Shown here piece by piece: positions 26,078 through 63,430 of a stretch of 64,000 bases of DNA. The stretch lies in NCBI RefSeq assembly GCF_023115425.1, contig NZ_CP096032.1, forward strand, positions 1,302,001-1,366,000. Reading direction: 5' to 3'. Made by a program: the position numbers and the translations under genes. This DNA comes from Synechococcus sp. A10-1-5-1 (lineage in GTDB: Bacteria; Cyanobacteriota; Cyanobacteriia; PCC-6307; Cyanobiaceae). The notes below the pieces were generated by a model. It was not told the DNA's origin. It saw only the letters and a list, made by a program, of their open reading frames with translations, and searched no databases. Within the stretch, counting starts at the first letter, position 1; each line of letters opens with the position of its first letter.

Positions 26078-26635
26078 ATGGTGCTCACCCCGTCTGAAAT
26101 GTTGCCCCTGGGAACGCCCCTGCCGGCGTTCGCGCTGGAGCGGGCCACGGGGGGACGCTGGGAGACCACAGCGCTGGAGTCCAAGCCAGTGCTGGTGCTG
26201 TTCATCTGTGCCCACTGCCCCTATGTGATCCACATCGAGCCCGAACTGGGCCGCCTGGAGCGCGACTACGGCGAACGGGTGCAGATCGTGGCGATCTCCA
26301 GCAACAGCACGATCACCCACCCCCAGGACGGCCCCGAAGGCTTACGAGCCCAGGCCGAACGCCAAGGCTGGAGCTTCCCCTATCTCTTTGATGCCAGCCA
26401 AGCGGTGGCCAGGGCCTTCCAGGCGGCCTGCACCCCCGATCTCTTCCTGTTCAACAGCCAGCACAAGCTCGTCTACCGCGGCCAGTTGGATTCGAGCCGT
26501 CCCGGCAACGACGAACCCCTCACGGGTGCGGACCTACGGGCTGCAATTGATGACCTGTTGGCCGGGAACGCGGTGAATCCCGATCAGCGCCCCTCGATTG
26601 GCTGCAACATCAAGTGGCATCCGGCGAAGGCCTAA
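26078..26635 (+). CDS. Thioredoxin-fold redoxin with CAHC motif
   Basis: This 185-residue AhpC/TSA-like thioredoxin-family protein has the redox motif CAHC in LFICAHCPYVIHIEPEL, where many relatives have CNHC followed by PYV. The cis-Pro region is CTPDLFLFN and a third conserved-looking Cys is in IGCNIKW near the C-terminus. Members are thiol-disulfide reductases or peroxiredoxin-like proteins; the partner is unknown. The ATG at 26078 is chosen; the frame is open further upstream only because it is antisense to the lipoprotein gene. Confidence 0.88.
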   Translation: MVLTPSEMLPLGTPLPAFALERATGGRWETTALESKPVLVLFICAHCPYVIHIEPELGRLERDYGERVQIVAISSNSTITHPQDGPEGLRAQAERQGWSFPYLFDASQAVARAFQAACTPDLFLFNSQHKLVYRGQLDSSRPGNDEPLTGADLRAAIDDLLAGNAVNPDQRPSIGCNIKWHPAKA

Positions 26636-26673
26636 AAGGCCGAGAACCGAATCAGGGCCTTAAGGTTGCCGGC

Positions 26674-27894
<1,221 letters not shown>

Positions 27895-29929: not shown

Positions 29930-31957
29930 TTGGCCTCTACGAGGGTCATTGACATTGAAGGACCGGTACTGTTCCTAATGGGGCCGATTGGGTCCTTCTT
30001 TTCAAGACTTGCCAAGCACCTGGAGAGCCAAGGCGTTCAGGTCTACAAGCTATCGCTACCGCTACGCGAACCTGGCTTCAGAAATGACCAGAAGATTAGA
30101 TTTGCTGGAGATTTTGATGTTCAGTTCAAAGACTTTCTAGCCAAGGTCATTGAGGAAAAGCAAATTCACCATATTTTCATGTATGGCGACTTTATCTGGC
30201 CCCACCGGATTGCCATTGAACTGACGAGAGAACAAAACAACAAAGGTCGTCAACTGGAGAGCTGGGTCTTTGAACTTGGATATCTACGACCCAACTATGT
30301 GACTCTAGAACCCAATCGCGTGAATTGCAGGAGCAATCTCAATCAACCTGCCAGTTTCTACCGTGAGCTGCCTCCTGTAGAGACTCTGCCTGAAGCAAAA
30401 CGCGAAGCTGGTCTTCGCTGGAGAAAAGTCTGGAAAGCTCCAACGTTCATACAGCATGCTCTGACACGCTATCGAATCTGCGAAGGGGATCACAAGCTGC
30501 AACCGAAACCCAGCTATGTGCTCGCTCAGGTGCGCGGCTTTTTTCGCAAATACATATATGCCATTTCAGAGCGTTCGATTAAGCAACAGCTGTGGAAGGG
30601 GAAACCGTTCTTTTTGGTCATTCTCCAAGTGGCAACCGATAGCCAGCTGAAGCATGGCTCTCCTTACCGAGACGTCGGCGACTTTATTGGCACGACCCTT
30701 GTCTCGTTTGCTGTTCATGCCGAGAAACATCAACGTCTGTTTATCAAACATCACCCGCGCGATCGGGGGTACAACAATTATTCACAACTGATCAAGAGGG
30801 CGTGCCAACACCTCGACATAGAAGATAGGGTTTTTTATTTTCACGACAGTCCTCTAAGCGCGATTTTCAGAAATCCAAATTGTCAGGGATGCATTCTGAT
30901 TAACAGCTCGGTTGGATTCCAAGCGCTGTACCACAACATCCCCTTGAAGGCGCTGGGATCCTCTCCTTACAACTTAGAAGGATTAAGCGATCAACAAAGC
31001 CTCGATGAGTTCTGGAGTAATCCAACACCTTGCGACCGTGAGCTCTTCAAAAAGTTCTATCAATACACCATCGAAAAGACGCAGATCAATGGAAACTTTG
31101 ATGGATATTTCCCATTTGACCAGACATTCCTCGTGCTGCCCAGTGCGCAGACGATTGCGCAGGCAGCCAAGACCGATCGATCTCCTCTCCATCGACCACT
31201 CACGCTGATCCAAAGACTCGGTCAACTGGGGATGGCCTATGCACACTATGCCATTCATTGGTTGGCCTATGGCCTCGGTAAGAAACAGCTAGGCCGAACG
31301 CTGTTTGAACAATCCGCACAACGGTGTCTTCACGCTCTGGGAGCAACCGTGATCATGGAGCGCTCGGATATGCGGTTCGCGAATCGAGCAGAACTACACA
31401 TCGGAAACCATGAAAGCGCGTTGGACGTGCTCCTCGTGCATGGATTTTTTAAGATGCCAGCCGCCACAACAGCGCAGCTCCACCTGCGCTTTCTGCTCCC
31501 GGGCTTTCGCTACGCGACCACCAGATATGGGCATCTTCTCCTGAATTACAAGTGCCCTCAATCACGAACCTCGACCTTACGCAAAAGCAACAGCTCCCTA
31601 AAACGCAACGGTCGATTCTTCATCTTTCCAAGCGGCTCACTGAAAACAAGCATTGAAGAGAGATTCAGTAGCAGCGTTGCTTTTTTGGCCCGTGAGAATG
31701 ATGCCGTTGTCTATCCATGGATCATTCGTTATCAATCCAAAGAAGCAGGCAAGATTCAACAGGAGTTCCGGAACCCGCTACGCCTACTCCTCGATCGCCT
31801 CAGCGGTGATTCTCTTCTCATTGTTTGCAGCCAAGATCAACCTATCGATAGCCGTGACTATGCAACAAACCAAGCGCTGACCGAAGCCTTGCATGCCATC
31901 TACAAAGGAAATGCCCGAAAAGAGTCGCTCAGGCGACGCGTTAGCAGGACTCATTGA
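29930..31957 (+). CDS. kpsS: KpsS-like Kdo transferase fused to a PlsC-type acyltransferase
   Basis: Residues 1-410 are KpsS-like. GPVLFLMGPIGSFFSRLA opens the protein, FIKHHPRDRG (271-280) carries the His-Pro pair, and INSSVGFQALYHNIPLKALG (324-343) is the donor-site block. KpsS adds the first Kdo to lysophosphatidylglycerol. Residues 430-660 form an LPLAT/PlsC domain: NHESALD gives the catalytic HX4D (His494, Asp499), FIFPSGSLKTS (565-574) replaces the FPEGT block, and VVYPWIIRY matches block IV. I know of no KpsS with this extension. The start is TTG at 29930 with AGGA about 10 nt upstream. The gene follows kpsC by 29 bp. Confidence 0.85.
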   Translation: MASTRVIDIEGPVLFLMGPIGSFFSRLAKHLESQGVQVYKLSLPLREPGFRNDQKIRFAGDFDVQFKDFLAKVIEEKQIHHIFMYGDFIWPHRIAIELTREQNNKGRQLESWVFELGYLRPNYVTLEPNRVNCRSNLNQPASFYRELPPVETLPEAKREAGLRWRKVWKAPTFIQHALTRYRICEGDHKLQPKPSYVLAQVRGFFRKYIYAISERSIKQQLWKGKPFFLVILQVATDSQLKHGSPYRDVGDFIGTTLVSFAVHAEKHQRLFIKHHPRDRGYNNYSQLIKRACQHLDIEDRVFYFHDSPLSAIFRNPNCQGCILINSSVGFQALYHNIPLKALGSSPYNLEGLSDQQSLDEFWSNPTPCDRELFKKFYQYTIEKTQINGNFDGYFPFDQTFLVLPSAQTIAQAAKTDRSPLHRPLTLIQRLGQLGMAYAHYAIHWLAYGLGKKQLGRTLFEQSAQRCLHALGATVIMERSDMRFANRAELHIGNHESALDVLLVHGFFKMPAATTAQLHLRFLLPGFRYATTRYGHLLLNYKCPQSRTSTLRKSNSSLKRNGRFFIFPSGSLKTSIEERFSSSVAFLARENDAVVYPWIIRYQSKEAGKIQQEFRNPLRLLLDRLSGDSLLIVCSQDQPIDSRDYATNQALTEALHAIYKGNARKESLRRRVSRTH

Positions 31958-32511: not shown

Positions 32512-33384
32512 TCAGCCCTGCGATCCATAGGGCTTGAAGAAGCGACGTTGCGCGGGGCTAATTTGGTCTGATGAACCTGAAAAAAGCAGTTGCAGGATCT
32601 CATTGTAAGAACGAGCAACAGAGACCCCCTCATAACGGATTGAGCACAACTTCAGGTAAGGCGACAACACTCTGGGCAGCTGAAACCTCTGATCAATGCT
32701 CTTGAGATGTTGCTCAAGGGCGGCAAGAGAATCAATCTCATCAGTAATCTCCGAAGAATCTGTCGGGGTCACCTCAATAGGAAACCGTGGTGAAGGCAGC
32801 TGGAGATCCAGGCAGCCGCTGCGAAGATTTCGCTGCGCAAAAGCAAGAAACTCTGCTGTGCACCGCGTCGAGCAAGCAAACTGATTAAACGAGAGCATGC
32901 CAAACGCGCGGCTGATTCCTCGTGCTTCCGGGAGACAGACAAAGGCGCGGATCAGCTCTCCCAACCATTGCTTCCGTTGATAATCAGGCAATACAAAGGT
33001 TCGGCCAATTTCCGCATAACTGATTCCATGGGAGCCCATCACAGAGGCCAGACCGGGATAACAATGCTCGAGATAGGATTGATCAGCTGAGATGCCTTCG
33101 AAGGGGTAGCCCTGGTCTCCAACAAACAACAGCCTCTGACCGCCGATCAGGGAGTTCTCAGCAGCATTCCAAATCAGGAAATGCCAATAGAACGGATCAC
33201 GCCCATCTAGTTCCAACTCAGATTGATAGCGAGGCGAAAGTTCCGCGAATGCCCGCGATCTCTGCTCACCAAGCCAAGGCAAAAGGGGGCCAACGCGCTC
33301 AGGTGGTATAAGCAGCAAGACCGTCTCTACGCTGCGTTCAAGAACACAATCTTGATACTCGCCTAACGTGAGTTGAATTTTCAT
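32512..33384 (-). CDS. OlsB-like GNAT-fold N-acyltransferase
   Basis: This 290-residue protein resembles the hemolysin/OlsB-type GNAT acyltransferases, which use acyl-ACP. DPFYWHFLIWNAAENSLIGGQRLL corresponds to the family's substrate strand pair. SYAEIGRTFVLPDYQRKQWLGELIRAF matches E-GRS-VHPDYRGG, and ARGISRAFGMLSF the next strand. The N-terminal 80 residues and the C-terminal 100 are not assigned. It may acylate an amine or a glycan-lipid precursor. Its place between kpsS and the export genes suggests work on the anchor or on an amino sugar. It is divergent from the next gene with 48 bp between starts. Confidence 0.6.
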   Translation of the reverse strand: MKIQLTLGEYQDCVLERSVETVLLLIPPERVGPLLPWLGEQRSRAFAELSPRYQSELELDGRDPFYWHFLIWNAAENSLIGGQRLLFVGDQGYPFEGISADQSYLEHCYPGLASVMGSHGISYAEIGRTFVLPDYQRKQWLGELIRAFVCLPEARGISRAFGMLSFNQFACSTRCTAEFLAFAQRNLRSGCLDLQLPSPRFPIEVTPTDSSEITDEIDSLAALEQHLKSIDQRFQLPRVLSPYLKLCSIRYEGVSVARSYNEILQLLFSGSSDQISPAQRRFFKPYGSQG

Positions 33385-34442: not shown

Positions 34443-35513
34443 ATGATTTTTAGTTCAGGGAAGAAAACTCGCACGACCCGGATCAAGATCGCCGTTGGTC
34501 TTGGCTTAGGTGGGCTGACTGGTCTGCTCAACCTCAGGTGCCTGGCCGGCACTCTCAATAACCCCCGCTACGTTCTCGGTCCCGGCGATCGGTTGCAGGT
34601 GAAACTCTTCCAAGTGGAGGGGTTTGATAGCAGCGTGGCGGTGCTGCCCGATGGCACCGTGAGCCTGCCCAGGGTCGCCGCGATCCGTGTCTCCGGGCTG
34701 AATCTGGATCAGGCCCGCAAAGCGATCGAGAAGGCCTACGGAGCTGTGTTGAGGCGCCCCTTGGCCTATGTGGATCTGGTTGGAACGCGCCCGCTGCGGG
34801 TCAGCGTTACAGGTCAAGTGCAGCGGCCTGGGCTTTACAGCATGGGCTTGAGCGAAACCGCTCAACTGCAGAACAACAGTGGCGGCGCCTCCACGGCAGT
34901 CGCCAGCCAAGGCTGGCCCACCTTGGTGGAAGCGATTCAGAAGGCCGGAGGACTCACCGCCAGCGGAGATCTGCGCCGCGTGACTCTGATCCGCTCCGGC
35001 TATCCGGTGCGGGTTGTGAACTATTGGGAAGCGCTGCGCACAGGCGAACCGATTGAGAATCCCCTGATTTACGACGGCGACAGCATTCGGATCCCGGTGG
35101 CCGAAGGACAAAGCGAGGAAGAACTGCTGACCATTGCCAGCTCGAGTTTTGCCCCTGCATCGATCACAGTGAACGTGGTGGGCGAGGTGGAAAAACCTGG
35201 GCCACAGCAAATCCGTGCCAACAGTCCCTTGAGCCAGGCCGTGCTCTCAGCCGGTGGGGTCAGCCGTCGCGGCAATCGCAACACGGTGGAACTGCTGCGG
35301 CTGCTGCCGAACGGCACCGTGGAGGGCAAAAAACTGGCCTACAAGCCCCAAGCCCCCTTGGGTGATCCCAACAATCCCCCTCTGCGCGATGGGGATGTGG
35401 TGGTAGTTGATCGCCACCTCTGGGCCAAAACCACCGATGGGCTGAAATCTGCCGTCGAGCCCCTCGGTCCTGTGCTCAATGCCGCCTCGATCTTCCGGCT
35501 GTTTGCGCTCTGA
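34443..35513 (+). CDS. Outer-membrane polysaccharide export protein (Wza/KpsD-like)
   Basis: This 356-residue protein has the Poly_export domain YVLGPGDRLQVKLFQVEGF (about 43-61), followed by DGTVSLPRVAAIRVSGL and two SLBB domains (VSVTGQVQRPGLYSMG and VNVVGEVEKPGPQQIRANSPL). The N-terminus has a hydrophobic segment (about 13-36) as an export signal; no clean lipobox is seen. Such proteins form the outer-membrane channel or periplasmic adaptor for polysaccharide export. It is followed after 3 bp by a DUF1997-like gene and then kpsM/T/E. Confidence 0.92.
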   Translation: MIFSSGKKTRTTRIKIAVGLGLGGLTGLLNLRCLAGTLNNPRYVLGPGDRLQVKLFQVEGFDSSVAVLPDGTVSLPRVAAIRVSGLNLDQARKAIEKAYGAVLRRPLAYVDLVGTRPLRVSVTGQVQRPGLYSMGLSETAQLQNNSGGASTAVASQGWPTLVEAIQKAGGLTASGDLRRVTLIRSGYPVRVVNYWEALRTGEPIENPLIYDGDSIRIPVAEGQSEEELLTIASSSFAPASITVNVVGEVEKPGPQQIRANSPLSQAVLSAGGVSRRGNRNTVELLRLLPNGTVEGKKLAYKPQAPLGDPNNPPLRDGDVVVVDRHLWAKTTDGLKSAVEPLGPVLNAASIFRLFAL

Positions 35514-35516
35514 TCG

Positions 35517-35990
35517 ATGGACGATCTGTGGACTCAGGTGAGCCATTCCTATTCTCTGCCCGCGGTGAGCTGGGAGCAGCTGCTGCAGCTACCGCTGGAG
35601 AGCCTGGGTCTGCAACCCGTGGCTGAGCAAGGCTGGATCTATCCCAGCCGACCTTATGCCTTGGCGGGGTACACCATTCAGCCGCGCCTCTTCTGCAGCG
35701 TGAGCCGTAGTTTGCAGCACCTTGAGGTCTCGATTAATAAAATCACGGTGCATGGCCTGCCCCAACTTGGAGATGGCTTGAAGCTCTCAGGAGCGATCCG
35801 TTTCTCAGAGCAGTCTTCGCACACCCGGGTCGAGCAATCGCTGGGGGCATCCACCAGCAGCACATCCCTGCTCGCGGTGGTGCCCAGGTCTCTGCTGAAG
35901 CCTCTGATTCAGAAGGCCCTATTGGCCTCCCATCAACGCATGAGCCGCACGTTGCAACGACGGCTGAGTCAAGCGTTGGGGGTCCAGTGA
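35517..35990 (+). CDS. DUF1997-like protein inside the export operon
   Basis: This 157-residue soluble protein resembles DUF1997: a short strand-rich N-terminal half, then a C-terminal amphipathic region (VVPRSLLKPLIQKALLASH followed by an Arg-rich helix). Compare the partial gene at the left end of the window. It sits between the Wza-like gene (3-bp gap) and kpsM (one-base TGATG overlap), so it is made with the export machine. Its role is unknown. I know of no such gene in classical kps operons, which makes it a candidate cyanobacterial accessory. Confidence 0.55.
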   Translation: MDDLWTQVSHSYSLPAVSWEQLLQLPLESLGLQPVAEQGWIYPSRPYALAGYTIQPRLFCSVSRSLQHLEVSINKITVHGLPQLGDGLKLSGAIRFSEQSSHTRVEQSLGASTSSTSLLAVVPRSLLKPLIQKALLASHQRMSRTLQRRLSQALGVQ

Positions 35991-36787
35991 TGGCACGGCC
36001 GATTCGGGGCAATGCCATCAGTGGCTGGCAGGTTCAGCGCAATGTGATCAGCGCCTTGGTCTATCGCGAGCTCAAGACCCGCGTGAGTGAAGTGCGCTTT
36101 GGCGTGCTGGGTGTGTTTATCGAGCCCCTGGGTGTGATGGCCGTCTTCTTGGCCATTTTCTCAGCCATCCGCGGAAACCGCGGCACGTTGGATGTGGCGT
36201 TATTTCTGATGTGCGGGATTGTTTTGTTTACCCTCTTCAATGACATTGCGATCCGCTCGTTGAACGCCATGAAGGCCAATGAAGCGCTGTTTTTCTATCG
36301 GCCTGTCAAACCGATTGACACCGTGATTGCCAGGGGTCTGGTCGAATCAGGGCTCTACGCGATTGTGCTGATTGTGATCTCGATGGCGATCTTCCTGATG
36401 CGCGAGCAATGGATGCTCGCGGATCCACCACTGCTGGCCATCTGCTTCGTCTGCTTAGCCGCGACGGCCCTGGGCCTGGGGCTCATCTTGATGGTTGCCG
36501 GGCATCGCTACCCCAGCCTGCATCAGTTTGCGCCTCTGGCGATGCGGCCCCTGTGGTTCATTTCTGGGGTGTTTTTCTCAACAGCAGCTCTTCCGGCCTG
36601 GCTTCTGCCTTGGATCAGCTGGAACCCCGTCGTGCAGGCCATTGAACTGAGTCGACACGCGTTCAATCCCGACTATGTCTTGCCAGAAGTAATCTCACTG
36701 CCCTATCTTATTGCTTGCGCAGCCTTAAGCTGCTGCATCGGCCTATGGATTTACAGCAATAACGAACGTCTTCTTTTGACCCGATAA
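35990..36787 (+). CDS. kpsM: ABC transporter permease for capsule export (KpsM-like)
   Basis: This is an ABC-2 type permease of 265 residues with six hydrophobic segments. The cytoplasmic N-terminus with VYRELKTRV is followed by VLGVFIEPLGVMAVFLAIF and MRPLWFISGVFFSTAALPAWL, both typical of KpsM/Wzm. It forms the inner-membrane pore for the lipid-linked polysaccharide. The ATG at 35990 overlaps the upstream stop by one base; a GTG three bases earlier is also in frame. kpsT follows 8 bp downstream. Confidence 0.93.
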   Translation: MARPIRGNAISGWQVQRNVISALVYRELKTRVSEVRFGVLGVFIEPLGVMAVFLAIFSAIRGNRGTLDVALFLMCGIVLFTLFNDIAIRSLNAMKANEALFFYRPVKPIDTVIARGLVESGLYAIVLIVISMAIFLMREQWMLADPPLLAICFVCLAATALGLGLILMVAGHRYPSLHQFAPLAMRPLWFISGVFFSTAALPAWLLPWISWNPVVQAIELSRHAFNPDYVLPEVISLPYLIACAALSCCIGLWIYSNNERLLLTR

Positions 36788-36795
36788 GCTCTTCC

Positions 36796-37491
36796 ATGAT
36801 TAAAGTCACAAACCTCAGCAAGAGCTATCGCCACAAAGGTAAGCGCGTGAGCGTCTTTCAAAACCTCAATTTTGAGTTGAACTCGGGGGAATCGGTCGCC
36901 CTACTCGGCCGCAATGGAGCCGGGAAAAGCACCCTCTTAAGAATCCTTGGGGGCATCGATCAAGCCGATTCCGGAACCATTGAGGCTGACTGCAGCATGA
37001 GCTGGCCTGTGGGTCTGACCGGAGGCTTTCAAGGCAGCCTCAGCGGCCGAGAAAACACAACATTTGTGAGCAAGATTTATGCCGGGCATGACCCAGAACT
37101 GATCGAAGAAAAAGTTCGCCGAGTTGAAGAATTTGCCGAGCTGGGCGTACATTTTGATCGCCCCTTCAAAACCTATTCCAGCGGCATGCGTAGCCGAGTG
37201 ACCTTCGGTCTCTCGATGGCGTTTGATTTTGACGTGTATCTGATTGATGAGGTGACTAGCGCCGGCGATGAACGCTTCCGCAAGCGCAGCAAAAAGGTGC
37301 TTGAGCAGCGCCACGAAACGGCAGATTTCATCATGGTGGATCACAACCTATGGGGCCTGAAATTTCACTGTGACCGGGCACTTCTGCTCCACAATGGCTC
37401 CTTGATTGAATTTGACGACCTCGAAGAAGGGATTGCGACCCACAAAAGACTGCTCGAGAACCCAACCCAGCACGAACTGGTTGCTGCTTGA
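36796..37491 (+). CDS. kpsT: ABC transporter ATPase for capsule export (KpsT-like)
   Basis: This is a 231-residue nucleotide-binding subunit. Walker A is GRNGAGKST, the Q-loop region VGLTGGFQGSL, the signature YSSGMRSRVTFGLS, and Walker B FDVYLIDEVTSAGD, followed by the switch His in VDHNLWG. The protein stops soon after the ATPase core, so it lacks the C-terminal carbohydrate-binding domain of O-antigen Wzt proteins. This short form is the KpsT type used for group 2 capsules. It overlaps kpsE's TTG by four bases, or precedes its ATG by two. Confidence 0.94.
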   Translation: MIKVTNLSKSYRHKGKRVSVFQNLNFELNSGESVALLGRNGAGKSTLLRILGGIDQADSGTIEADCSMSWPVGLTGGFQGSLSGRENTTFVSKIYAGHDPELIEEKVRRVEEFAELGVHFDRPFKTYSSGMRSRVTFGLSMAFDFDVYLIDEVTSAGDERFRKRSKKVLEQRHETADFIMVDHNLWGLKFHCDRALLLHNGSLIEFDDLEEGIATHKRLLENPTQHELVAA

Positions 37492-37493
37492 CT

Positions 37494-38669
37494 ATGCGTG
37501 ATATCTTAGGAGTCAAATTATTGATGAAATCCCGTCAAGCCAAAGACGACGGGACATCATTGCCAAGCCTCGCCAAATTCAAACCAAAATCTCAGCGGCA
37601 ATTGCTGCTAGTTCTCGGCATTCCATTCGCTGCACTCTTTCTCTACTTCTATGCCATCGGTCGAGATCGCTACTTCGTGCGTTCAGAAGTCGTTGTTCGC
37701 AAAGCAAATGACAGCTCCCCAGCGACCCTCTCACTTGGCTCCTTCCTAGGCGGCGGCAATCAACAATCGCTCGAAGATGCGCGCTATCTCAAGACCTATC
37801 TGGAATCACCGCAGGTGCTGGAGGACCTGGAAAAGTCATTCAATTTTCGGCAGGCCTATGCCAAGCGCTTCCCAGATCTCTACCCAGGCCTGAGCAGACA
37901 GGCAACACGCGAGCAGGTCTACGACACCTTTCGCCGCCAGATCACGGTTTCGCTCAACGAAACCTCTGGTCAACTCACCGTGCGTACGCTTGCCTTCGAC
38001 CCAAAAATAGCTCTGCGATTCAATCGGTTCCTGATCGAACAAGCGGACGAGTTTGTCAATCGATTGAATCAGGATATTTACAAGAAACAACTAGATTTTG
38101 CGCAGGAGCAGGTCGCTCTCAATAGCAAGCGCGTCCAAGAAGCGAGCGGCAAGCTTTTAGCTTTCCAAAACCAAAACAAGCTCCTCGATGCCCGCTCCCA
38201 GGGCCAAGGCAGTGAGGCCTTTATTTCCGCGCTCGAAGGAGAGCTCGCCAAAAAGCGGGTTGAGCTAGCCACCCTTCGGCGCCAGTTCGTGGATCAGCGG
38301 GCCCCTGAAATCGAAGCAGTGCAAGCACAAGTTCAGGAGCTACAAGGCCAGATCCAAAGGGAACGCAGCCAGCTCGTGAGCCCGCTAGGCAAAAACCTCA
38401 ACCAAAAAGCCGTGAAACAGGCCGAGCTGGAAAACAGCCTGAATTTTGCCAACGATCTATACAAGGCCTCCATCTCCGCGGCAGAACAGATCCGCGTTGA
38501 CAGCCTGCAGAAACAGCGCTTCATGGCAGTGCTCTCCAAGCCCTTACTCCCGCAGGAACCATGGCAATACTGGCGTCACAAGGGCTTCTTCACGGCGCTG
38601 ACTGCCCTGCTGGTTGGTGTTGCCCTCACCAAGTTTTTGCTGGGGATGGCCGATAGCCACCGCAATTGA
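37494..38669 (+). CDS. kpsE: Capsule export inner-membrane/periplasmic protein (KpsE-like)
   Basis: This 391-residue polysaccharide co-polymerase-type protein has an N-terminal membrane span (LLLVLGIPFAALFLYFYAI, about 38-56) and a C-terminal span (about 365-385, FTALTALLVGVALTKFLLG). Between them lies a long periplasmic coiled-coil (about 195-330, with FVDQRAPEIEAVQAQVQEL). KpsE links the ABC transporter to the outer-membrane channel. ATG 37494 is preferred over TTG 37488. The downstream glycosyltransferase starts within its stop codon (TTGA). Confidence 0.92.
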   Translation: MRDILGVKLLMKSRQAKDDGTSLPSLAKFKPKSQRQLLLVLGIPFAALFLYFYAIGRDRYFVRSEVVVRKANDSSPATLSLGSFLGGGNQQSLEDARYLKTYLESPQVLEDLEKSFNFRQAYAKRFPDLYPGLSRQATREQVYDTFRRQITVSLNETSGQLTVRTLAFDPKIALRFNRFLIEQADEFVNRLNQDIYKKQLDFAQEQVALNSKRVQEASGKLLAFQNQNKLLDARSQGQGSEAFISALEGELAKKRVELATLRRQFVDQRAPEIEAVQAQVQELQGQIQRERSQLVSPLGKNLNQKAVKQAELENSLNFANDLYKASISAAEQIRVDSLQKQRFMAVLSKPLLPQEPWQYWRHKGFFTALTALLVGVALTKFLLGMADSHRN

Positions 38670-40642
38670 GCTGGCTGGTGCCATGGCGATCGCACCGCGA
38701 TTGGCGTTGGTGTGCGACACCACCCAGTGCGGCAGAAACAACCTGGCGCAGCGTGAAGCCATCGCACTGCGTTCTCGACGCTGACGAAACGCAAACCCTC
38801 TGGCTTCGAACAACGTCGCCCCTGAAGCGCGGCTGGTACCTGTTTGGCATCCGCCATCGCGGCGACAATCGCCGCTGCACCGGCTGGCTGGTCCCAGAGG
38901 GGCAGACCTCATTTCGGCAGGGCAGGCCGATGTATCCGGTGCGAAGGCGCTGGCGCGTTGTGCGTCTGCCGCACTCCGCCCATCTGCTGCTGGAACTCGA
39001 GCGGGTACAGCAGCCCCTGCGGCTAGACGAACTCTGGTTGCTGCGGATTCCAGCCTGGGATGCATGGCGGCGAATCCGGCGACGCCTCAAGGCTGCAGGC
39101 ACAAAACCCGAACTGTGGCGCCAGTACAACCAACTGCTCGCCGGCCAAGCCAGACGCCACGCACTCGTGCCCTATGAGCGCTGGCAACGCCTGGTGGAGC
39201 AGCCTGCGGTCGAGGCCCTGGCGCCGCTTTCAGCAGCAGAGCGAGACCAGTTCCACCTCTATGAATTCGGGGATCCCGCGCAACTCTTGCCTGCTGGCCA
39301 TTGGCTTGTTGCCACGCAGCCGGGGGTGACTCTTAAGGCATGGACCCTTCAGGCCGTTGCCGCAGCGCAGCGCCAGAAGCCAGGAGCGCAGCTGCTCTAC
39401 GGCGATGAAGACCAACTCACCCCAATGGGTGAGCGGCAGTGCCCTCAGTTCAAACCGGCCTGGAACCATGAGTTGTGCTGGTGCGATCCCCACTACAGCT
39501 CCTGCTGGTTTGTTGCCGCAGAACTCTGGAACCGATGGCTGGCCTCAGCACCCGCCCAATCTCCTGAAAGCTGGCAGCAACTGGTGTTGACCCTGCAGCA
39601 ACAGCTGAGCAACCCAATGGATCAGATCGGCCACATCCCGATGGTGCTGAGTCACCGCCAGGGAGCTTCTGTACAAGAACCGCTGAACCCGGAGCAACTC
39701 GAACCGTTCCTACCCCAAGGTGGCCAAGCCAGTGTGACTGCTGGTGGCCTGGGCTATCGCCTCCATTTCTCTCTCGCCAAGACCACCTGTCTCAGCGTGA
39801 TCATCCCGACGCGGGATCGACTGGAGCTGCTGCAGGCTTGTCTGAGCTCCATCGACAAGCACAATCCCGGCTGCCCGATCGAACTGGTGATTGCCGATAA
39901 CGGCAGCCGGGAGGTGCAAACCCTGCAATGGCTGCAGCAGTTTGGAGCGGCCAGCAGCCCCGAGCGGCGACAGGTGGTCGTGAAAGCGGCAGGGCCCTTC
40001 AACTATTCCGCCATCAACAATCTGGCGGTGCAACACAGCCAGGGATCGGTGCTGCTGTTGCTCAACAACGATGTGGAGTTCCTGCATCCAGGGTGGGGGT
40101 ACGAGCTGGCCTCCCAGGCCTTGCGGCCAGGCATCGGCTGTGTGGGGGCACAACTGCTCTATCCCGACCACACAATTCAGCACGCCGGTGTGGTGCTTGG
40201 GGTTGGTGGGCTAGCGGGCCATGGCCACCAGGATTTCCCAGGGGTTGCCAATGGATATCACAGACGCCTGCAACTGGCGCAGGAGGTGAGTGCGGTCACA
40301 GCGGCCTGCTTAGCCATCTCCCGCACAACCTGGGATGCGCTGGGGGGGCTGGATGCGCAGCAACTGGCTGTGAACTACAACGACGTGGATCTAGGCCTCA
40401 GGGCGCAAGCCCATGGCCTGCGCAACCTGTATCTGCCGCAGGTTCGGGCCATTCACCACGAATCGAAAAGCCGCGGCAGGCCCGAGGGGGCGGCATTCCG
40501 GCAATGGAGGCGCGAATGGAAGGTGATGGAGCAGCGATGGGGGGCTGAACTCATCCAAGACCAGGCCTATAGCCCCCACTGCAGCTTGGAGGCCGCTGAT
40601 TTCAGCCTGGCTCTGCGCAGCGGGGTGCCCCTGGTGCGCTGA
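38666..40642 (+). CDS. Large GT2 glycosyltransferase with N-terminal extension
   Basis: This is a 658-residue protein. The GT-A domain occupies about residues 375-630: LSVIIPTRDRLELLQACLSSI, ELVIADNGS, GPFNYSAINN, LLLNNDVEF (metal DxD-equivalent NDVE) and AACLAISRTTWDALGGLD, with NYNDVDLGLRAQAHG near the end. It is the long rhamnosyl/galactofuranosyl-type GT2 arrangement seen in O-antigen and capsule clusters. Residues 1-370 include a second, degenerate GT-like region (QLLYGDEDQLTPMGERQCPQFKP). The start is TTG 38666, coupled to kpsE. The 3' end overlaps the convergent GT by 41 bp. Confidence 0.85.
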   Translation: MSWLVPWRSHRDWRWCATPPSAAETTWRSVKPSHCVLDADETQTLWLRTTSPLKRGWYLFGIRHRGDNRRCTGWLVPEGQTSFRQGRPMYPVRRRWRVVRLPHSAHLLLELERVQQPLRLDELWLLRIPAWDAWRRIRRRLKAAGTKPELWRQYNQLLAGQARRHALVPYERWQRLVEQPAVEALAPLSAAERDQFHLYEFGDPAQLLPAGHWLVATQPGVTLKAWTLQAVAAAQRQKPGAQLLYGDEDQLTPMGERQCPQFKPAWNHELCWCDPHYSSCWFVAAELWNRWLASAPAQSPESWQQLVLTLQQQLSNPMDQIGHIPMVLSHRQGASVQEPLNPEQLEPFLPQGGQASVTAGGLGYRLHFSLAKTTCLSVIIPTRDRLELLQACLSSIDKHNPGCPIELVIADNGSREVQTLQWLQQFGAASSPERRQVVVKAAGPFNYSAINNLAVQHSQGSVLLLLNNDVEFLHPGWGYELASQALRPGIGCVGAQLLYPDHTIQHAGVVLGVGGLAGHGHQDFPGVANGYHRRLQLAQEVSAVTAACLAISRTTWDALGGLDAQQLAVNYNDVDLGLRAQAHGLRNLYLPQVRAIHHESKSRGRPEGAAFRQWRREWKVMEQRWGAELIQDQAYSPHCSLEAADFSLALRSGVPLVR

Positions 40643-43100: not shown

Positions 43101-43114
43101 GGCGCAGGCGTTCG

Positions 43115-44926
43115 ATGCGGGCCTCTCTATTCTCAAGGCACGACCTGGACTGCGCTTTGGGAGCCGATCGAAGCCGACCGCTGATCGATCGCAGCGACTG
43201 CCTCGAGCTGGTTGCAACGGGCGTCTTTGGCACCCACAGCGGCCGGGCCCTGCAGCTGCACCGGCAGGGCTTCTGCCTGCTACGCCCCAAGGATCCCCAG
43301 TGGCTGAGCCTGCTGGATCAGGTGCGACTGCAGCTGGAGACTCTGGTGGATTTGAGCCTCTGGCGCACAGGGGCAGATGCACGCATCCGCATTAGCGAGG
43401 GCTGGCGCAACCCAGGCACACCGGCGGTGAAGGCCCTGGCCTTGCATCCGGAAATCCTGGATGTCTTGCGCTGCTGCTACGGGCGGGAACCGTTTGCCTT
43501 TCAAACCCTGAACTTCCCGGTGGGCAGCAACCAGCCCATCCACAGCGATGCCACCCACTTCCACAGCGAACCCGAGGGGTTCATGGCTGGGGTGTGGGTG
43601 GCTTTAGAGGACGTGACGCCAGACGCGGGGCCTTTGCTGGTCTGCCCCGGCAGCCACCGCTTGCCCTACGTTTCCGCCGCTGACTTGGGGCTCACACGCG
43701 AGCAGATCCAAGCCGAAGCCCATCCCCAACGGCTGTTTGAGCCCTACTGGCAGGAGCAACTCCAACAGGGGGGATTCGAACCCGAACCGTTCCTGGCCAA
43801 GCGAGGCGATGTGCTGATCTGGCACGCCAACCTGCTGCATGGCGGTGCGCCGGTGATCGATCACCAGCTGAGCCGCTGGAGCCAGGTGAGCCACTACCTA
43901 TTTGAAGGCTGCCGCTTCTGCTCGCCGATGCAGAGCTTCGGGCAGGGGCGCAGGCGCTGGAAACAGCAACGGGATCTGGCCACGGGCCAGTGGCGCCCCA
44001 CCCCCGCCCAACGCCTGAAGCAGTTGATCCTGCCGGCACAGCCCGTTGTGAAGAGCAGCCCCAAACCAAAGGCCCTCGATCTCAGCGGCTGCCCCTTGAT
44101 CGATGCGCCCCACTGCGAAGCACTGGCGGCGTCTGGCTGCTTTGGTGAGCACACCAAGCTGGCCCTGGAGCTACACCACCAGGGTTTCGGGACGTTGAAG
44201 CTGCAAGATCCCCACTGGCTGGATCTAGTGGATCAACTACGGGGTGATCTGGAGCCCCTGGTGGATCTAGAAGCCTTGTCACAAGGCCGCTTGCCGCCTC
44301 AGCGCTTTCAGGACGCCTGGTTGCATCTGGGGATCGAGCGGGTGCGGCAGCTGGCCTGCCACCCCGAGATTCTGGCGGCATTGCGAGTGCTCTATGGGCG
44401 CGATCCGTTTCCCTTTCAAACACTCAATTTCCCAAACGGCACGGCGCAGCACTTCCATAGCGACGCGGTGCATTTCCATAGCCTGCCCCACGGATTCATG
44501 TGCGGCATCTGGGTGGCCCTGGAAGACATCCAGGCTGACGCTGGCCCGTTGCTCTATTACCCCGGCAGCCACCGCGAGCCCTATCTGAGCGCCCGAGATC
44601 TAGGGATCAGTAAGGAGAATCTCAAGGCGGAGATAGCCCCACAGCGGTTGTTCGAGCCGCACTGGCGGAACCTAGTGCAGCACAAAGGATATCGAGAGGA
44701 CGTGTTCCTTGCGCGCAAAGGGGAGGTGCTGATCTGGCACGCCAACTTGCTGCACGGGGGCTCCGCTGTGTGCAACAAGCGCCGCAGCCGCTGGAGCCAG
44801 GTTAGCCACTACTACTTCCGAGGGTGTGGCTACACCACACCGCTGCTGCACACCAGCGATGCCGATCTCCTAGGCGACCAGTGGCGGCTGTCGCCGCTCG
44901 ATCTAAGCGAGGATGGCCGGAGGTAG
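43115..44926 (+). CDS. Tandem PhyH (phytanoyl-CoA dioxygenase-like) protein
   Basis: This 603-residue protein is an internal duplication of an Fe(II)/2-oxoglutarate dioxygenase domain: copy 1 at about 25-300, copy 2 at about 325-600. Each has LNFP, HSDATHFHS or HSDAVHFHS (the HxD iron ligands), GxWVALEDV/I, DAGPL, CPGSH or YPGSH and WHANLLHGG (distal His), plus SRWSQVSHY (2OG-contacting Arg region). Both copies keep their ligands, so both may be active. Likely work is hydroxylation of a sugar or glycan-linked group, but the substrate is unknown. The short distance to the divergent GT start leaves little promoter space. Confidence 0.88.
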   Translation: MRASLFSRHDLDCALGADRSRPLIDRSDCLELVATGVFGTHSGRALQLHRQGFCLLRPKDPQWLSLLDQVRLQLETLVDLSLWRTGADARIRISEGWRNPGTPAVKALALHPEILDVLRCCYGREPFAFQTLNFPVGSNQPIHSDATHFHSEPEGFMAGVWVALEDVTPDAGPLLVCPGSHRLPYVSAADLGLTREQIQAEAHPQRLFEPYWQEQLQQGGFEPEPFLAKRGDVLIWHANLLHGGAPVIDHQLSRWSQVSHYLFEGCRFCSPMQSFGQGRRRWKQQRDLATGQWRPTPAQRLKQLILPAQPVVKSSPKPKALDLSGCPLIDAPHCEALAASGCFGEHTKLALELHHQGFGTLKLQDPHWLDLVDQLRGDLEPLVDLEALSQGRLPPQRFQDAWLHLGIERVRQLACHPEILAALRVLYGRDPFPFQTLNFPNGTAQHFHSDAVHFHSLPHGFMCGIWVALEDIQADAGPLLYYPGSHREPYLSARDLGISKENLKAEIAPQRLFEPHWRNLVQHKGYREDVFLARKGEVLIWHANLLHGGSAVCNKRRSRWSQVSHYYFRGCGYTTPLLHTSDADLLGDQWRLSPLDLSEDGRR

Positions 44927-59670: not shown

Positions 59671-60416
59671 CTCAGCACCTCCTCAAGCCGGCCCTTTTCA
59701 AACACCTGGCAGGCACCGCCAACCGTGCAATCCAGGATGCGGCGACCGTCTGCCTCAAAGGCGGTACGCGCCATGTCGTAAAAACGCTCAGAGTTAGCGA
59801 GATCTGGGTTATCCCAGGTGTAGCCGCTGAAGTAGCTGGGATCAAAATGGTTGGGATCTAGGCCCTGCAGCACATGGGGTTCATTGGGTGACCCCTGGTA
59901 GCTGTAGCGATGGTCCATCCCCACAATCACCACCATGGAAAAGCCCATGTAGAAGGCCAGTTGCAAAGCGGCGAAAGTTACGGTGTAACCCTCGAAAAAC
60001 CCTCCGCTCACATCGGGGTGGAAGCACTCTTCTGGTCTGCCCTGCAAGAGATAAGTGAGTGCTGATTCGGGCAGAGGGTTAGCGTGGCCCATGTCTTTAA
60101 GAAAGCGCACGCAGTTGAGTTGCGAGATCTCTTGGGCGCTCTGCTCGATCACGCGCCGATTGATGGCCACGTAGTAGCGCGGATAAAAGCGGCAGCGGCG
60201 AAAGCCCATGAAGATCTTGTTCAACCCCATACTCACTTCCCTACGGATCAGCGAAAAATCCGTTTGATTCAGAGAAGGGCCATTACACACCAGCACCAAC
60301 CGCTCACCGCGATGACAATTGCGGAAGCGATGTAGTCGAGCTCCAAGATTCACCCTATGCTCCATCAGATCCAAACCAAGGGCCTGCTCACTTGACCTGT
60401 AAGACTTAGCAGTCAT
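59667..60416 (-). CDS. DUF115/MptE-like protein
   Basis: This 249-residue protein has LVLVCNGPSLNQTDFSLI (about 40-57), the DUF115 NGPSL motif, SMGLNKIFMGFRRCRFYPRYYVAINRRV, then VSGGFFEGYTVTFAALQLAFYMGFSMVVIVGMDHRYS with the GMDHR pattern common to this family. Members occur in glycan loci and include sugar-transferring proteins; some relatives are hydroxymethylpterin kinases, which is unlikely in this context. It overlaps the kdsD 3' end by 11 bp and the SDR start by 4 bp. Compare the N-terminal half of the fusion at 53.1-55.5 kb. Confidence 0.8.
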   Translation of the reverse strand: MTAKSYRSSEQALGLDLMEHRVNLGARLHRFRNCHRGERLVLVCNGPSLNQTDFSLIRREVSMGLNKIFMGFRRCRFYPRYYVAINRRVIEQSAQEISQLNCVRFLKDMGHANPLPESALTYLLQGRPEECFHPDVSGGFFEGYTVTFAALQLAFYMGFSMVVIVGMDHRYSYQGSPNEPHVLQGLDPNHFDPSYFSGYTWDNPDLANSERFYDMARTAFEADGRRILDCTVGGACQVFEKGRLEEVLR

Positions 60417-61350
60417 AAATTTGAATCACCCCACACAACTTGCCGTCGTCAAAGACAGGCAGAATGCCAACTTTGTGTTGCAGCATGTGCAGTCGTGCTG
60501 CTTCCACTGACTCCCGAACATCAATCTGGAGCGGCGCAGGCGTCATCAAGTCTTGCACCAAGTTGGTGAGCTCAACGCCTCTCTCCAAGCCCCGGCGCAA
60601 GTCACCGTCCGTCACGATTCCGATCAGCTGCTGGTCCCGCAACACCAGCGCAACACCGAGACGACCGCTTGTCATCACAGAGATCATCTCCGCAACCAAC
60701 GTGGTCTCCAAGCAACACGGCAATGGCAGCGAATGCATCACCTCTCCAACGCTCTTCAACAGTCGCGCCCCCAACCTGCCGAGGGGATGAAAACGGGCAA
60801 AATCGCTCTGCTGAAAGGCCCTCTGTTCGGCAGCACTGACAGCGAGCGCATCACCCAGAGCCATCGCCAGTGCCGTGGAACTCGTGGGCGCCAGGTTGTA
60901 GCTGCAGGCTTCCTGAGCCACCGATGCATCCAGCCAAACATCGCAACGGAGAGCCAGTGTTGATGTAGACGCGCCCGTGATCAGCACCGTTCTACTGCCC
61001 TGGCCCTTCGTGAAGATCAGCAAACGCAGGAGCTCTTCTGTTTCGCCGGAATTTGACAACAACAACACCAGATCCTGGGCGCGAATCATGCCCAGATCGC
61101 CATGCATGGCATCCGCCGGATGCACAAACGCCGACGGCGTACCCAAGGACGCAAAGCTAGCCGCAATCTTGCGAGCCACCAAACCGGATTTACCCATTCC
61201 GGCCACAATCACGCGGCCCTCACAGGCCAGGATCAACTCCACCGCTTCCGCAAAGCGCTGATCCAGCCGATCGATCGCCGCAGCAATCGCCTCCGACTCG
61301 ATCCGCAGCACCCGCTGTGCTGTGGCCAGGATCTCGGAAGCGTTGCTCAT
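60406..61350 (-). CDS. kdsD: KpsF/GutQ-type arabinose-5-phosphate isomerase
   Basis: KdsD makes D-arabinose-5-phosphate, the first committed precursor of Kdo. The 314-residue protein has an SIS domain (about 40-185) with VIVAGMGKSGLVARKIAAS, FVHPADAMHGDLGM and LLLSNSGETEELL. It is followed by two CBS units (about 200-314, with IGIVTDGDLRRGL). Order and length fit the standard form. The isoform placed in a capsule locus is usually called KpsF. It overlaps kdsB-kdsC's stop by four bases. Confidence 0.95.
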   Translation of the reverse strand: MSNASEILATAQRVLRIESEAIAAAIDRLDQRFAEAVELILACEGRVIVAGMGKSGLVARKIAASFASLGTPSAFVHPADAMHGDLGMIRAQDLVLLLSNSGETEELLRLLIFTKGQGSRTVLITGASTSTLALRCDVWLDASVAQEACSYNLAPTSSTALAMALGDALAVSAAEQRAFQQSDFARFHPLGRLGARLLKSVGEVMHSLPLPCCLETTLVAEMISVMTSGRLGVALVLRDQQLIGIVTDGDLRRGLERGVELTNLVQDLMTPAPLQIDVRESVEAARLHMLQHKVGILPVFDDGKLCGVIQIYDC

Positions 61351-62525
61351 GGCATCGCCTCCAGCAGCATCTGAGCCACCTCTCGGATAGCCCCCTCACC
61401 GCCGCACGTGTTCAGCACCGAGCGGGCCGCCGATTGCACCACCTCCGGAGCATCCGCCACCGCAAAGCTCCAGCCGCAGCACTCCATCCCCGGCAAATCG
61501 AGGCTGTCATCGCCCACATAGGCGCAGGCCTCCAAATCCACACCGAGCTCTGCAGCGATCTGGCGGCAGGCAGATGCCTTATCCGGCTGGCCCAAAACGG
61601 CGTGCTGAATGCCCAGCTCCGCCATACGGCGCCGTAACGCCAGCGAATCGCGGCCACTCACCAGAGCTACCTGGATACCGCGCTGAATCAGTTGCTTGAT
61701 CGCAAAGCCATCGCGAGAGTGGAAGGCCTTGAGCTCTTCGCCGTCGGGGCCATACCAAAGCCGCCCATCGGTGAGCACGCCATCCACATCGCAGAGCAGC
61801 GCCCTGATCTGACGCAGCCTGAGGATTTGCTCCACCGGCGCCACATCTTCAGGGCAGTCCACCCCAAGGCTCGGGGTCTGGGTGCTGAGCAGCTGGATGC
61901 TTAAACCCGCCTCAAGCCAGCGCAGCTGCTCCAGGCTTTCTTGCTCTTCCAGGGCCGTGGGCCGCAACTGGCGAATCGTTGCTAAGGCCTGGGCGCTGAA
62001 GCCATACACCCCCACGTGTTGCTCAAAGCAACTGGATCCGTAGGGAATCGGGCTGCGGCTGAAATAGAGGGCTCGGCCGTTCTGGCCGCGGGCCACCTTC
62101 ACGCGGCTGGGCTCCTGGGCCTGCGCAGCAGTGATCGAATGACAGAGGCTCAGCACATCGGCGGCGTTGCTCTGCAACGCACCGATCAAACGATCCAAAT
62201 AAGCGGGGTTCACCAGCGGCTCATCACCCTGGAGATTCAGGTAGTAGCTAGCGGGGAAATCGGCCGTGATCGCCAGCAGGCGCTCGGTGCCATTGCGCAG
62301 TGCGCTGCTGGTGAGCGCCACTTGCGCTCCGGCCGCCTGGGCGGCCTCCGCAATCTCAGGGTGATCAGTGGCCACCACCACACCGCAGGCCTTTTGAGCT
62401 TGCAGGGCTGCTTCCACCACCCAGGCAATCAGGGGCTTGCCCGCCAGATGCAGCAACGGCTTCCCCGGTAAGCGAGTGGAGCCATACCGCGCAGGAATCA
62501 CGATCAGGCAGTCGCCGGAAGTCAT
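61347..62525 (-). CDS. kdsB-kdsC: Fused CMP-Kdo synthetase (KdsB) and Kdo-8-P phosphatase (KdsC)
   Basis: This 392-residue protein joins two Kdo-pathway enzymes. Residues 1-237 are KdsB: IVIPARYGSTRLPGKPL (CTP loop), VVVATDHPEI, NLQGDEPLV, then YFSRSPIPYG and HVGVYGFSAQAL. Residues 238-392 are KdsC, a HAD phosphatase: ALLCDVDGVLTDG (nucleophile Asp246, Asp248), SGRDSLALRRR, GQPDKASACR and AYVGDDSLDLPGM. The steps are not consecutive in flux order (KdsC acts before KdsB). It starts at ATG 62525, one base into the kdsA stop. Confidence 0.95.
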   Translation of the reverse strand: MTSGDCLIVIPARYGSTRLPGKPLLHLAGKPLIAWVVEAALQAQKACGVVVATDHPEIAEAAQAAGAQVALTSSALRNGTERLLAITADFPASYYLNLQGDEPLVNPAYLDRLIGALQSNAADVLSLCHSITAAQAQEPSRVKVARGQNGRALYFSRSPIPYGSSCFEQHVGVYGFSAQALATIRQLRPTALEEQESLEQLRWLEAGLSIQLLSTQTPSLGVDCPEDVAPVEQILRLRQIRALLCDVDGVLTDGRLWYGPDGEELKAFHSRDGFAIKQLIQRGIQVALVSGRDSLALRRRMAELGIQHAVLGQPDKASACRQIAAELGVDLEACAYVGDDSLDLPGMECCGWSFAVADAPEVVQSAARSVLNTCGGEGAIREVAQMLLEAMP

Positions 62526-63430
62526 CAGGCGATCTCCAGGGCCGGCTGGGCCTTCACCAGCCGATCAATGGCGGCCAGTTGCTCCACAAACGCCGGGATC
62601 TGCTGGCTCGGCAGTGCGCTTGGGCCATCGCAGAGGGCCTGATCCGGATCGGGATGCGCCTCCACAAACACCGCCGCAATCCCACTGGCCACCGCGGCTT
62701 TCGCCAGGGGCATCAGCTGCTGACGCCGCCCTCCCGATTGCGCTTGCCCAGCCGAGCGGCACTGCAAAGCATGGGTGACATCCACGCTGATCGGCTTGCC
62801 GCCACTCACCTGGCGCATCACCTCCAGGCCGAGCAGATCCACCACCTGGTTGTCGTAGCCAAACACCGTGCCCCGCTCGCAGAGCACCAGATCCCGGCAA
62901 CCCTGCTGCTCAAACTTCTGCACCAGAGGCCCCATCTGCTGGGGCGAGAGAAACTGCGGTTTCTTGATGTGCACCGGCCGCCCGGAAGCCGCCATGGCCG
63001 CCACCAGATCGCTCTGCCGCGCCAGAAACGCTGGGAGCTGGAGCACATCACACACCGCCGCGGCCGGCTGCACCTGCCAGGGCTCATGCACATCCGTGAG
63101 CACAGGCACCTGCAGCTGCTGCTTCACCTGCTGCAACCAGGCGAGGCCTTGCTCTAGGCCAGGTCCACGAAAACTCGAGCCCGAGCTGCGGTTGGCTTTG
63201 TCAAAGCTGGCTTTGAAGACATAGCCCAAGCCCTGAACTCTGCAGGCCTCTCGGAACAGCTCACCAACCTCCAGCGCCAGCTCGAGGCTCTCGAGCACAT
63301 TGATCCCGCCGATCACCACCAAAGGCTGTTGTTGGCCGATTGGCACGGGGAAACCAACTTGGAGTCGAATAGACGGATCCACAACGAGTGGATGAACGAA
63401 CAGCGGATGGAGATCTAAGGAACGAATCAT
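62525..63430 (-). CDS. kdsA: 3-deoxy-D-manno-octulosonate-8-phosphate synthase
   Basis: KdsA condenses PEP with arabinose-5-phosphate. The 301-residue protein has VVIGGINVLESLELAL (about 38-53), where Asn replaces the Cys of metal-dependent enzymes, so it should be the metal-independent type. FKASFDKANRSSGSSFRGPGL, VPVLTDVHEPWQ, CDVLQLPAFLARQSDLV, VHIKKPQFLSP and FVEAHPDPDQALCDGPSALP complete the family. It heads the minus-strand run of 13 genes down to WcbI. Its upstream region holds short direct repeats and a long palindrome. Start ATG at 63430. Confidence 0.96.
   Translation of the reverse strand: MIRSLDLHPLFVHPLVVDPSIRLQVGFPVPIGQQQPLVVIGGINVLESLELALEVGELFREACRVQGLGYVFKASFDKANRSSGSSFRGPGLEQGLAWLQQVKQQLQVPVLTDVHEPWQVQPAAAVCDVLQLPAFLARQSDLVAAMAASGRPVHIKKPQFLSPQQMGPLVQKFEQQGCRDLVLCERGTVFGYDNQVVDLLGLEVMRQVSGGKPISVDVTHALQCRSAGQAQSGGRRQQLMPLAKAAVASGIAAVFVEAHPDPDQALCDGPSALPSQQIPAFVEQLAAIDRLVKAQPALEIA

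Follow-up and report, generated by a model that had tools for sequence, protein, structure and literature searches.

The stretch of DNA analysed here, which we call the window, comprises 64,000 nucleotides of Synechococcus sp. A10-1-5-1 (contig NZ_CP096032.1, positions 1,302,001 to 1,366,000) and belongs to a 2.40-Mb single-contig genome that is estimated to be 99.98% complete. Its capsule locus contains an uninterrupted open frame with a TTG start, coding for 675 amino acids, in which a KpsS-type transferase of 3-deoxy-d-manno-oct-2-ulosonic acid (Kdo) is, by sequence and predicted fold, joined to an intact-looking acyltransferase domain of the lysophospholipid acyltransferase (LPLAT) type. 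The fusion is accompanied within the window by KpsC, KpsMTED and a complete Kdo supply, and by the convergent gene of a GCN5-related N-acetyltransferase-like protein (GNAT) (Table 1). The original prediction, made from the sequence alone, had the coordinates of the fused frame right; the observation proved wider than was stated there, and the constant acyl-lipid neighbours of the fusion were absent from that account.

Table 1. Features of the window (positions in the window; bases of assignment as found by profile, fold or inspection)
Feature	Position	Strand	Basis and remarks
KpsC-like two-module Kdo transferase, 662 aa	27912..29900	+	PF05159, three stretches, E 1.2e-76; 29 bases upstream of the fusion
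KpsS-LPLAT fusion, 675 aa	29930-31957	+	Uninterrupted open frame, TTG start
KpsS-like retaining beta-Kdo transferase domain, residues 1-404	29930..31141	+	PF05159, KpsS model, WbbB/KpsC fold
LPLAT/PlsC-type acyltransferase domain, residues 405-675	31142..31957	+	PF01553; PlsC 5KYM fold
HX4D codons, His494 to Asp499	31409..31426	+	Read from sequence
GNAT acyltransferase, 290 aa, OlsF/OlsB/FeeM/AHL-synthase-like	32512..33384	-	PF13444, E 4.1e-9; convergent to the fusion
Glycosyltransferase-like protein, 328 aa	33433..34419	+	Weak Glyco_trans_1_4, E 0.0013, under cut-off
KpsD-like outer-membrane polysaccharide exporter	34443..35513	+	Poly_export and SLBB domains
KpsM-like ABC permease	35987..36787	+	NF050053, E 9.3e-41, under cut-off
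KpsT-like ATPase	36796..37491	+	ABC_tran; polysaccharide/teichoic acid export ATPase models, under cut-off
KpsE-like inner-membrane adapter	37488..38669	+	TIGR01010 BexC/CtrB/KpsE, E 8.1e-68, under cut-off
KdsD/KpsF arabinose-5-phosphate isomerase	60406..61350	-	TIGR00393, E 5.5e-84, over cut-off
KdsB-KdsC fusion, CMP-Kdo synthetase and Kdo-8-phosphate phosphatase	61347..62525	-	TIGR00466 and TIGR01670, over cut-off
KdsA, Kdo-8-phosphate synthase	62525..63430	-	TIGR01362, E 1.2e-95, over cut-off

Both halves of the fusion passed the cut-offs of their Pfam families. Capsule_synth (PF05159) was matched at residues 89-390 (E 2.9e-53; 181.8 bits, cut-off 20) and Acyltransferase (PF01553) at residues 489-599 (E 2.5e-8; 34.2 bits, cut-off 23). 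With the KpsS model of NCBIfam, NF050054, the E-value was 1.6e-81 and the score 274.6 bits, under the cut-off of 600, and because this equivalog cut-off was missed we call the protein KpsS-like. The LPLAT domain matched an acylglycerol-phosphate (AGP) acyltransferase model of NCBIfam below its cut-off (E 1.6e-5) and failed the cut-off for identity as PlsC (TIGR00530, 24.6 bits vs 102.95).

A structure prediction of the whole protein had been proposed as a check, and an AlphaFold2 model built from 21 sequences reached a mean predicted local distance difference test (pLDDT) score of 84. Residues 417-671 of the model superposed on PlsC of Thermotoga (5KYM; Z 17.3, root-mean-square deviation (rmsd) 4.5, 230 residues), and residues 12-403 on two beta-Kdo transferases, WbbB with Z 15.9 (rmsd 3.8, 280 residues) and KpsC with Z 14.6 (rmsd 3.5, 252 residues). 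The KpsS hallmarks that had been claimed for the amino-terminal part were thus borne out by profile and by fold (Z about 14-16), and the HX4D motif and the FPSGS block reported for the acyltransferase part are both present.

The HX4D of the window's fusion reads N493-H494-xxxx-D499, and FPSGS, at residues 566-570, resembles block III of the acyltransferases. The fused domain shares its fold and its HX4D with PlsC, and differs from it in the attached glycosyltransferase and in having P[NS]GSL, or more fully P[NS]GSLxTxI, where PlsC usually has FPEGT. In an alignment of 22 chosen intact LPLAT domains (19 of the 30 fused ones and three free ones, the decayed L030 being left out) the N, H and D and the P-x-G-S-L-x-T-x-I positions were invariant. 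Similarly, E115, D237, H274 and H275 of the KpsS part were invariant in 21 aligned fusions (the window's and 20 of 22 further ones, L093 and L094 being left out), the roles of these residues being tentatively assigned by motif order; catalysis in KpsC and WbbB involves an Asp nucleophile, a Glu base and a His (PMC10148158; papers are cited by PMC number).

In the family to which the window belongs, 35 of 251 sampled genomes, from eight genera, had a match to the fusion, and full-length fusions bearing the motif, with 45-51% identity, came from seven of the eight; the exception was genus g32, in which the domain is decayed. A sequencing-level join of two genes, an artefact that the original prediction had itself considered, is therefore rejected. 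Nor has the HX4D been lost from all close homologues, as NHxxxxD was kept in 29 of the 30 retrieved fusion loci, the sole exception being L030 of genome G032. Among 386 genomes sampled across the phylum, the fusion was found in 11 only, all of the window's family. A scan of an 84,980-species collection, with a narrow nine-residue pattern that distant relatives could escape, gave 23 loci. One is titled Bifidobacterium breve and the other titles are cyanobacterial, Synechococcus sp. ATX 2A4 and Cyanobium sp. Morenito 9A2 being among those titled as strains. Judged by length, ten of the 23 were contigs already counted; among the 13 new loci, ten full or near-full fusions keep the motif, L101 keeps it with its KpsS part cut by the contig start, the last motif position of L091 is unreadable (X), and L094 has a decayed fused domain together with an intact free copy. 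We also noticed that the locus titled as a Bifidobacterium breve metagenome-assembled genome (L099, CALPNT020000098.1) carries KpsS-LPLAT, GNAT and KpsD genes of picocyanobacterial type, and it is probably a mislabelled or contaminated bin. The original prediction knew of no description of the fusion; we likewise found none of the fusion or of its acyl-lipid cassette among the matches listed from the open-licence literature, subscription papers lying mostly outside this scope.

The gene order around the fusion was followed in 36 non-redundant loci, each genome being counted once (the window, L031-L047, L083-L087 and another 13). The GNAT gene proved inseparable from the fusion. It lies convergently on the 3' side of the fusion in 33 of the 33 loci whose contig reaches far enough, the contigs of L045, L093 and L094 ending before it. 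It was found in 35 of the 251 family genomes, 34 of which also carry the fusion (Fisher 9.6e-40, kinship ignored). One genome had only the GNAT (G159) and one only the fusion (G103), and neither is a true exception, since both contigs end inside the locus, that of G103 within KpsS. In the phylum sample, where up to five preliminary candidates per genome were scored, the GNAT occurred in exactly the 11 genomes that carry the fusion. KpsC adjoins the fusion in 34 of the 36 loci, the contigs of L099 and L101 ending before it. In three loci of genus g30 (L036, L041 and L047, from G099, G072 and G121) kpsC diverges from kpsS-LPLAT on the opposite strand, unlike in the other loci. The DegT aminotransferase gene that lies upstream in the window (26614-27894) was rejected as a member of the module, as none of the 17 loci L031-L047 matched it at 1e-5.

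The best NCBIfam match of the GNAT was to the C-terminal half of OlsF, which is its N-acylating half (E 1.9e-5 for the window's protein and up to 6.6e-15 for its relatives); against OlsB it scored 18.2 bits and missed the cut-off of 350. The two steps of ornithine lipid formation are each served by an acyltransferase domain of their own in OlsF (PMC12493201). Among the ten best structural matches of the GNAT model (pLDDT 84), nine were acyl-homoserine lactone (AHL) synthases and FeeM, with Z 12.7-13.2, and the tenth was a plain GNAT; by sequence, its profile had no match among PDB chains up to E 1. With FeeM and the AHL synthases it shares the GNAT fold and, presumably, acyl transfer to an amine, yet the identity is 10-17%, and the window-type protein is larger (about 285-365 residues as read) and has motifs of its own, SYLEHxYPG and E[IL]GR. 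The alignment of GNATs took in the window's protein and 15 of 21 others, the six whose extension ran past a stop being left out.

Between the fusion and the GNAT, 24 of the 33 loci have a FabF-like ketosynthase (KS) and an acyl carrier protein (ACP), family matches having been obtained for one KS and two ACPs. Pattern searches found the serine motif of the ACP in 24 of 24, the cysteine motif of the KS likewise in 24 of 24, HATGT in 23 and KGxxGH in 21. In the window's genome a single FabF-like gene was detected at E 1e-10, and its identity to the dedicated KS is 38%. A glycosyltransferase-like gene stands between the GNAT and KpsD in 11 of the 33 loci, namely all nine that have no KS/ACP pair, and L035 and L042. 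The constancy of the GNAT, often together with KS and ACP, points to a special acyl lipid that is assembled or modified by these enzymes.

We then looked at how the fused LPLAT domain is constrained. In nine close pairs, chosen by hand, the ratio of nonsynonymous to synonymous change (pN/pS) was 0.09-0.20 in the LPLAT part and 0.04-0.10 in the KpsS part, and the comparison of coding sequences thus points to purifying selection on the fused LPLAT in these pairs. The window's copy has no close relative among them; against L002 and L004 its pN/pS was near 0.65, a value that is uninformative about its constraint because the silent sites are saturated or nearly so. The idea that the LPLAT domain is a relic is rejected for most carriers by this selection and by the 29 kept motifs. 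It does hold for g32 and for the fused copies in G225, G216, G249 and L094, in which the motif is gone and an intact free LPLAT gene follows directly. In all four tandem loci (L031, L032, L033 and L094) the free copy keeps NHxxxxD and PNGSL while the fused copy has lost its motif, which suggests that it is the activity, and not the fusion itself, that is conserved; g32 is a counter-example.

The tandem loci do not constitute a clean release-of-constraint experiment. In L031 and L032 the KpsS part is 96.5% identical to that of a close relative and the fused LPLAT only about 31%; this divergence exceeds simple decay since the split and is read as recombination at the domain junction. The sequences suggest that L031, L032, L033 and L094 recombined with a divergent allele bearing a free LPLAT gene, the drop in identity having been measured in L031 and L032. 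The tree had long branches for the decayed rows of the L031/L032 type, for the window's copy and for L030, and the placement of such rows is unsure.

The locus can be compared with several known systems. Like the group 2 capsule loci of E. coli and others, it combines KpsS-type and two-module KpsC-type transferases, KpsMTED and the Kdo supply in one region. Group 2 KpsS is described as monofunctional (PMC10148158), and the NCBIfam model is 390 positions long, whereas the window's protein adds a PlsC-like domain and has 675 residues; in addition, the KpsS-like gene here is adjoined by the GNAT, mostly with KS and ACP. KpsS and KpsC build the Kdo linker on phosphatidylglycerol (PG) or lyso-PG (PMC10148158, PMC7694667), and the lipid end of such capsules has been presented as one conserved PG-Kdo structure, with the Vi antigen as 'the sole known outlier' (PMC9597891). 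In a survey of cyanobacteria, the confined distribution of KpsS and KpsC was read as a hint that the poly-Kdo linker is absent or that the transfer of Kdo to phospholipid is different there (PMC4594306). By analogy, the closest precedent is VexE of the Vi system, an LPLAT enzyme that makes a non-Kdo capsule anchor. It, too, is an LPLAT protein, dedicated to the lipid terminus of a capsule that leaves by an ABC transporter, and uses acyl-ACP, but it has tetratricopeptide (TPR) repeats before the LPLAT domain, acts on UDP-GlcNAc, and comes from an organism described as without Kdo-PG priming genes (PMC9597891). The fusion does not belong to the Vi type, as its front domain is a Kdo transferase, not TPR, and KpsC is present. 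The third parallel is with ornithine lipids. OlsBA or OlsF makes these amino lipids, which carry an N-acyl and an O-acyl chain (PMC12493201), and an N-acyltransferase is likewise paired with an O-acyltransferase there; in contrast to this pair, the O-acyltransferase here is fused to a Kdo transferase within a capsule locus.

On these grounds we give an even chance to the reading that a capsule exported by an ABC transporter is primed with Kdo by the fusion, in which the priming enzyme is joined to a member of a dedicated lipid-end module. We infer that the capsule's own lipid is the substrate of both acyltransferases and that the fusion couples acylation to priming. More weakly, and by analogy with OlsB/OlsA, the likeliest product would be a lipid with two chains, one bound as an amide and one as an ester, rather than an acylated PG. 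In such a pathway, the GNAT would first move a long, probably 3-hydroxy, acyl chain from ACP onto the amino group of a small acceptor, the chain being supplied by the dedicated KS and ACP in most relatives and by the housekeeping pool in the window's lineage. The fused LPLAT would add a second chain by an ester bond, like OlsA or like VexE-type LPLATs on glycolipids, and the KpsS domain would put the first beta-Kdo on the head group, the lipid being handed between the active sites of the fusion. KpsC would then lengthen the Kdo linker and KpsMTED would export the chain. In its most specific form, the proposal is that the anchor of a Kdo-primed capsule in picocyanobacteria is an amino-acyl lipid of two chains that is free of phosphorus and made locally, with the amide chain from the GNAT, the ester chain from the LPLAT and Kdo placed by KpsS directly on the lipid; this version is a tentative one that could well be wrong.

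If the module builds the anchor, the 'conserved' capsule anchor is not universal. With an amino-acyl anchor, ABC-exported capsules would have three classes of lipid end, the other two being (lyso)PG-Kdo and diacyl-N-acetylhexosamine, and cells in phosphate-poor waters would save phosphate. The conserved locus, with Kdo machinery, acyltransferases and often a ketosynthase and carrier protein of its own, suggests a testable chance of a new anchor class; its carriers are an ecologically important group, the chemistry can be tested in cultured strains that are not pathogens, and the fused primer and acyltransferase would offer a handle on the coupling of lipid and sugar steps that precedes export.

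Several observations weigh against the main reading. The LPLAT domain is nearest to the PlsC and AGP acyltransferase models and was not matched by the OlsF model, so that a glycerophospholipid substrate fits better than a lyso-ornithine lipid; its block III is P[NS]GSL, not FPEGT, and the use of donor or acceptor may therefore differ. The GNAT reached at best 54.7 bits against the OlsF cut-off of 620, which is set for the whole two-domain protein; no more than 1 Z separates many plain GNATs from the AHL synthases, and the first Foldseek match was an arylalkylamine N-acetyltransferase. The KS/ACP pair is missing from nine of the 33 loci, the window's among them. In genus g32 the HX4D has been lost with no replacement found (in G032 no second copy was found, and in G074 the loss is seen at a contig end), so the LPLAT step is dispensable there. 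kdsA is present in 34 of the 35 carriers but also in 76 of the 216 genomes that lack the fusion, so Kdo has further uses in the family. Finally, the acceptor and the acyl donor of the module are guesses.

Of the other explanations, the one that survives best is the repair or remodelling of lyso-PG, in which KpsS primes (lyso)PG and the fused LPLAT re-acylates it to a two-chain PG anchor, while GNAT, KS and ACP modify another target or supply a special chain; we consider it unlikely, though worth keeping in mind. It agrees with the closeness of the LPLAT domain to PlsC by profile and by fold, with the known (lyso)PG-Kdo anchor (PMC10148158) and with the description of a Campylobacter capsule on diacyl glycerol phosphate (PMC11800397), but it leaves the inseparability of GNAT and fusion unexplained. 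Moreover, the ends of the E. coli K5 capsule bear one or two acyl chains (PMC7694667), so KpsS needs no partner merely to obtain a diacyl anchor. KpsS of the known type also seems to manage without an LPLAT: of 100 plasmid records from outside the cyanobacteria that matched the KpsS part, none has a stretch that spans 80% of the fusion, and in each of the 30 listed the alignment is confined to residues 14-392, although a diverged LPLAT would escape this search. The original prediction had offered two purposes for the fusion, of which the re-acylation of lyso-PG is weakened by the mixed K5 ends, whereas the supply of a different acyl group comes nearer to what the constant GNAT/KS/ACP neighbours suggest.

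Less probable again is that the glycan itself is acylated in a Vi-like manner, the GNAT N-acylating an amino sugar and the LPLAT O-acylating Kdo or the first hexosamine. There are precedents in VexE, which acylates UDP-GlcNAc for the Vi anchor, another chain being added from a source not yet known, and in LpxL and LpxM, which are LPLATs of Kdo2-lipid A synthesis (PMC9597891). However, KpsS and KpsC are present in the window and, according to the same paper, not in the Vi system, and the fold of the fused domain matched PlsC first, the sugar-acylating LPLAT PatA coming lower (Z 11.6, 172 residues). We give little credence to the remaining idea, that the fused LPLAT serves KpsS chiefly as a platform for membrane binding, with catalysis secondary, and that GNAT, KS and ACP make an unrelated membrane lipid or signal: decayed fused domains do stay open frames in G225, G249 and G032, and those of G216 and of G074, at its contig end, are decayed too, but the motif kept in nearly all retrieved fusions, the low pN/pS of the nine pairs, the intact free LPLAT beside every decayed tandem copy and the co-occurrence of GNAT and KpsS all argue against it.

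With regard to Kdo itself, no WaaA-type transferase was found at E 0.001 in the window's genome, the only one searched, and there is accordingly no obvious use of Kdo for lipid A in this strain. We also noticed that two enzymes which supply CMP-Kdo, KdsB and KdsC, are combined in one protein of 392 residues, each half of which passes its family cut-off. Elsewhere in the window, a PseF-like CMP-sugar cytidylyltransferase gene (55556-56248, - strand) adjoins a gene whose 801-residue product weakly matches MptE-like proteins (53096-55501, - strand), and this pair may possibly, as far as the sequences indicate, serve nonulosonate glycosylation. A further gene (40602-43382, - strand) encodes a 926-residue protein in which a glycosyltransferase domain of family 2 is joined to a group 1-like one.

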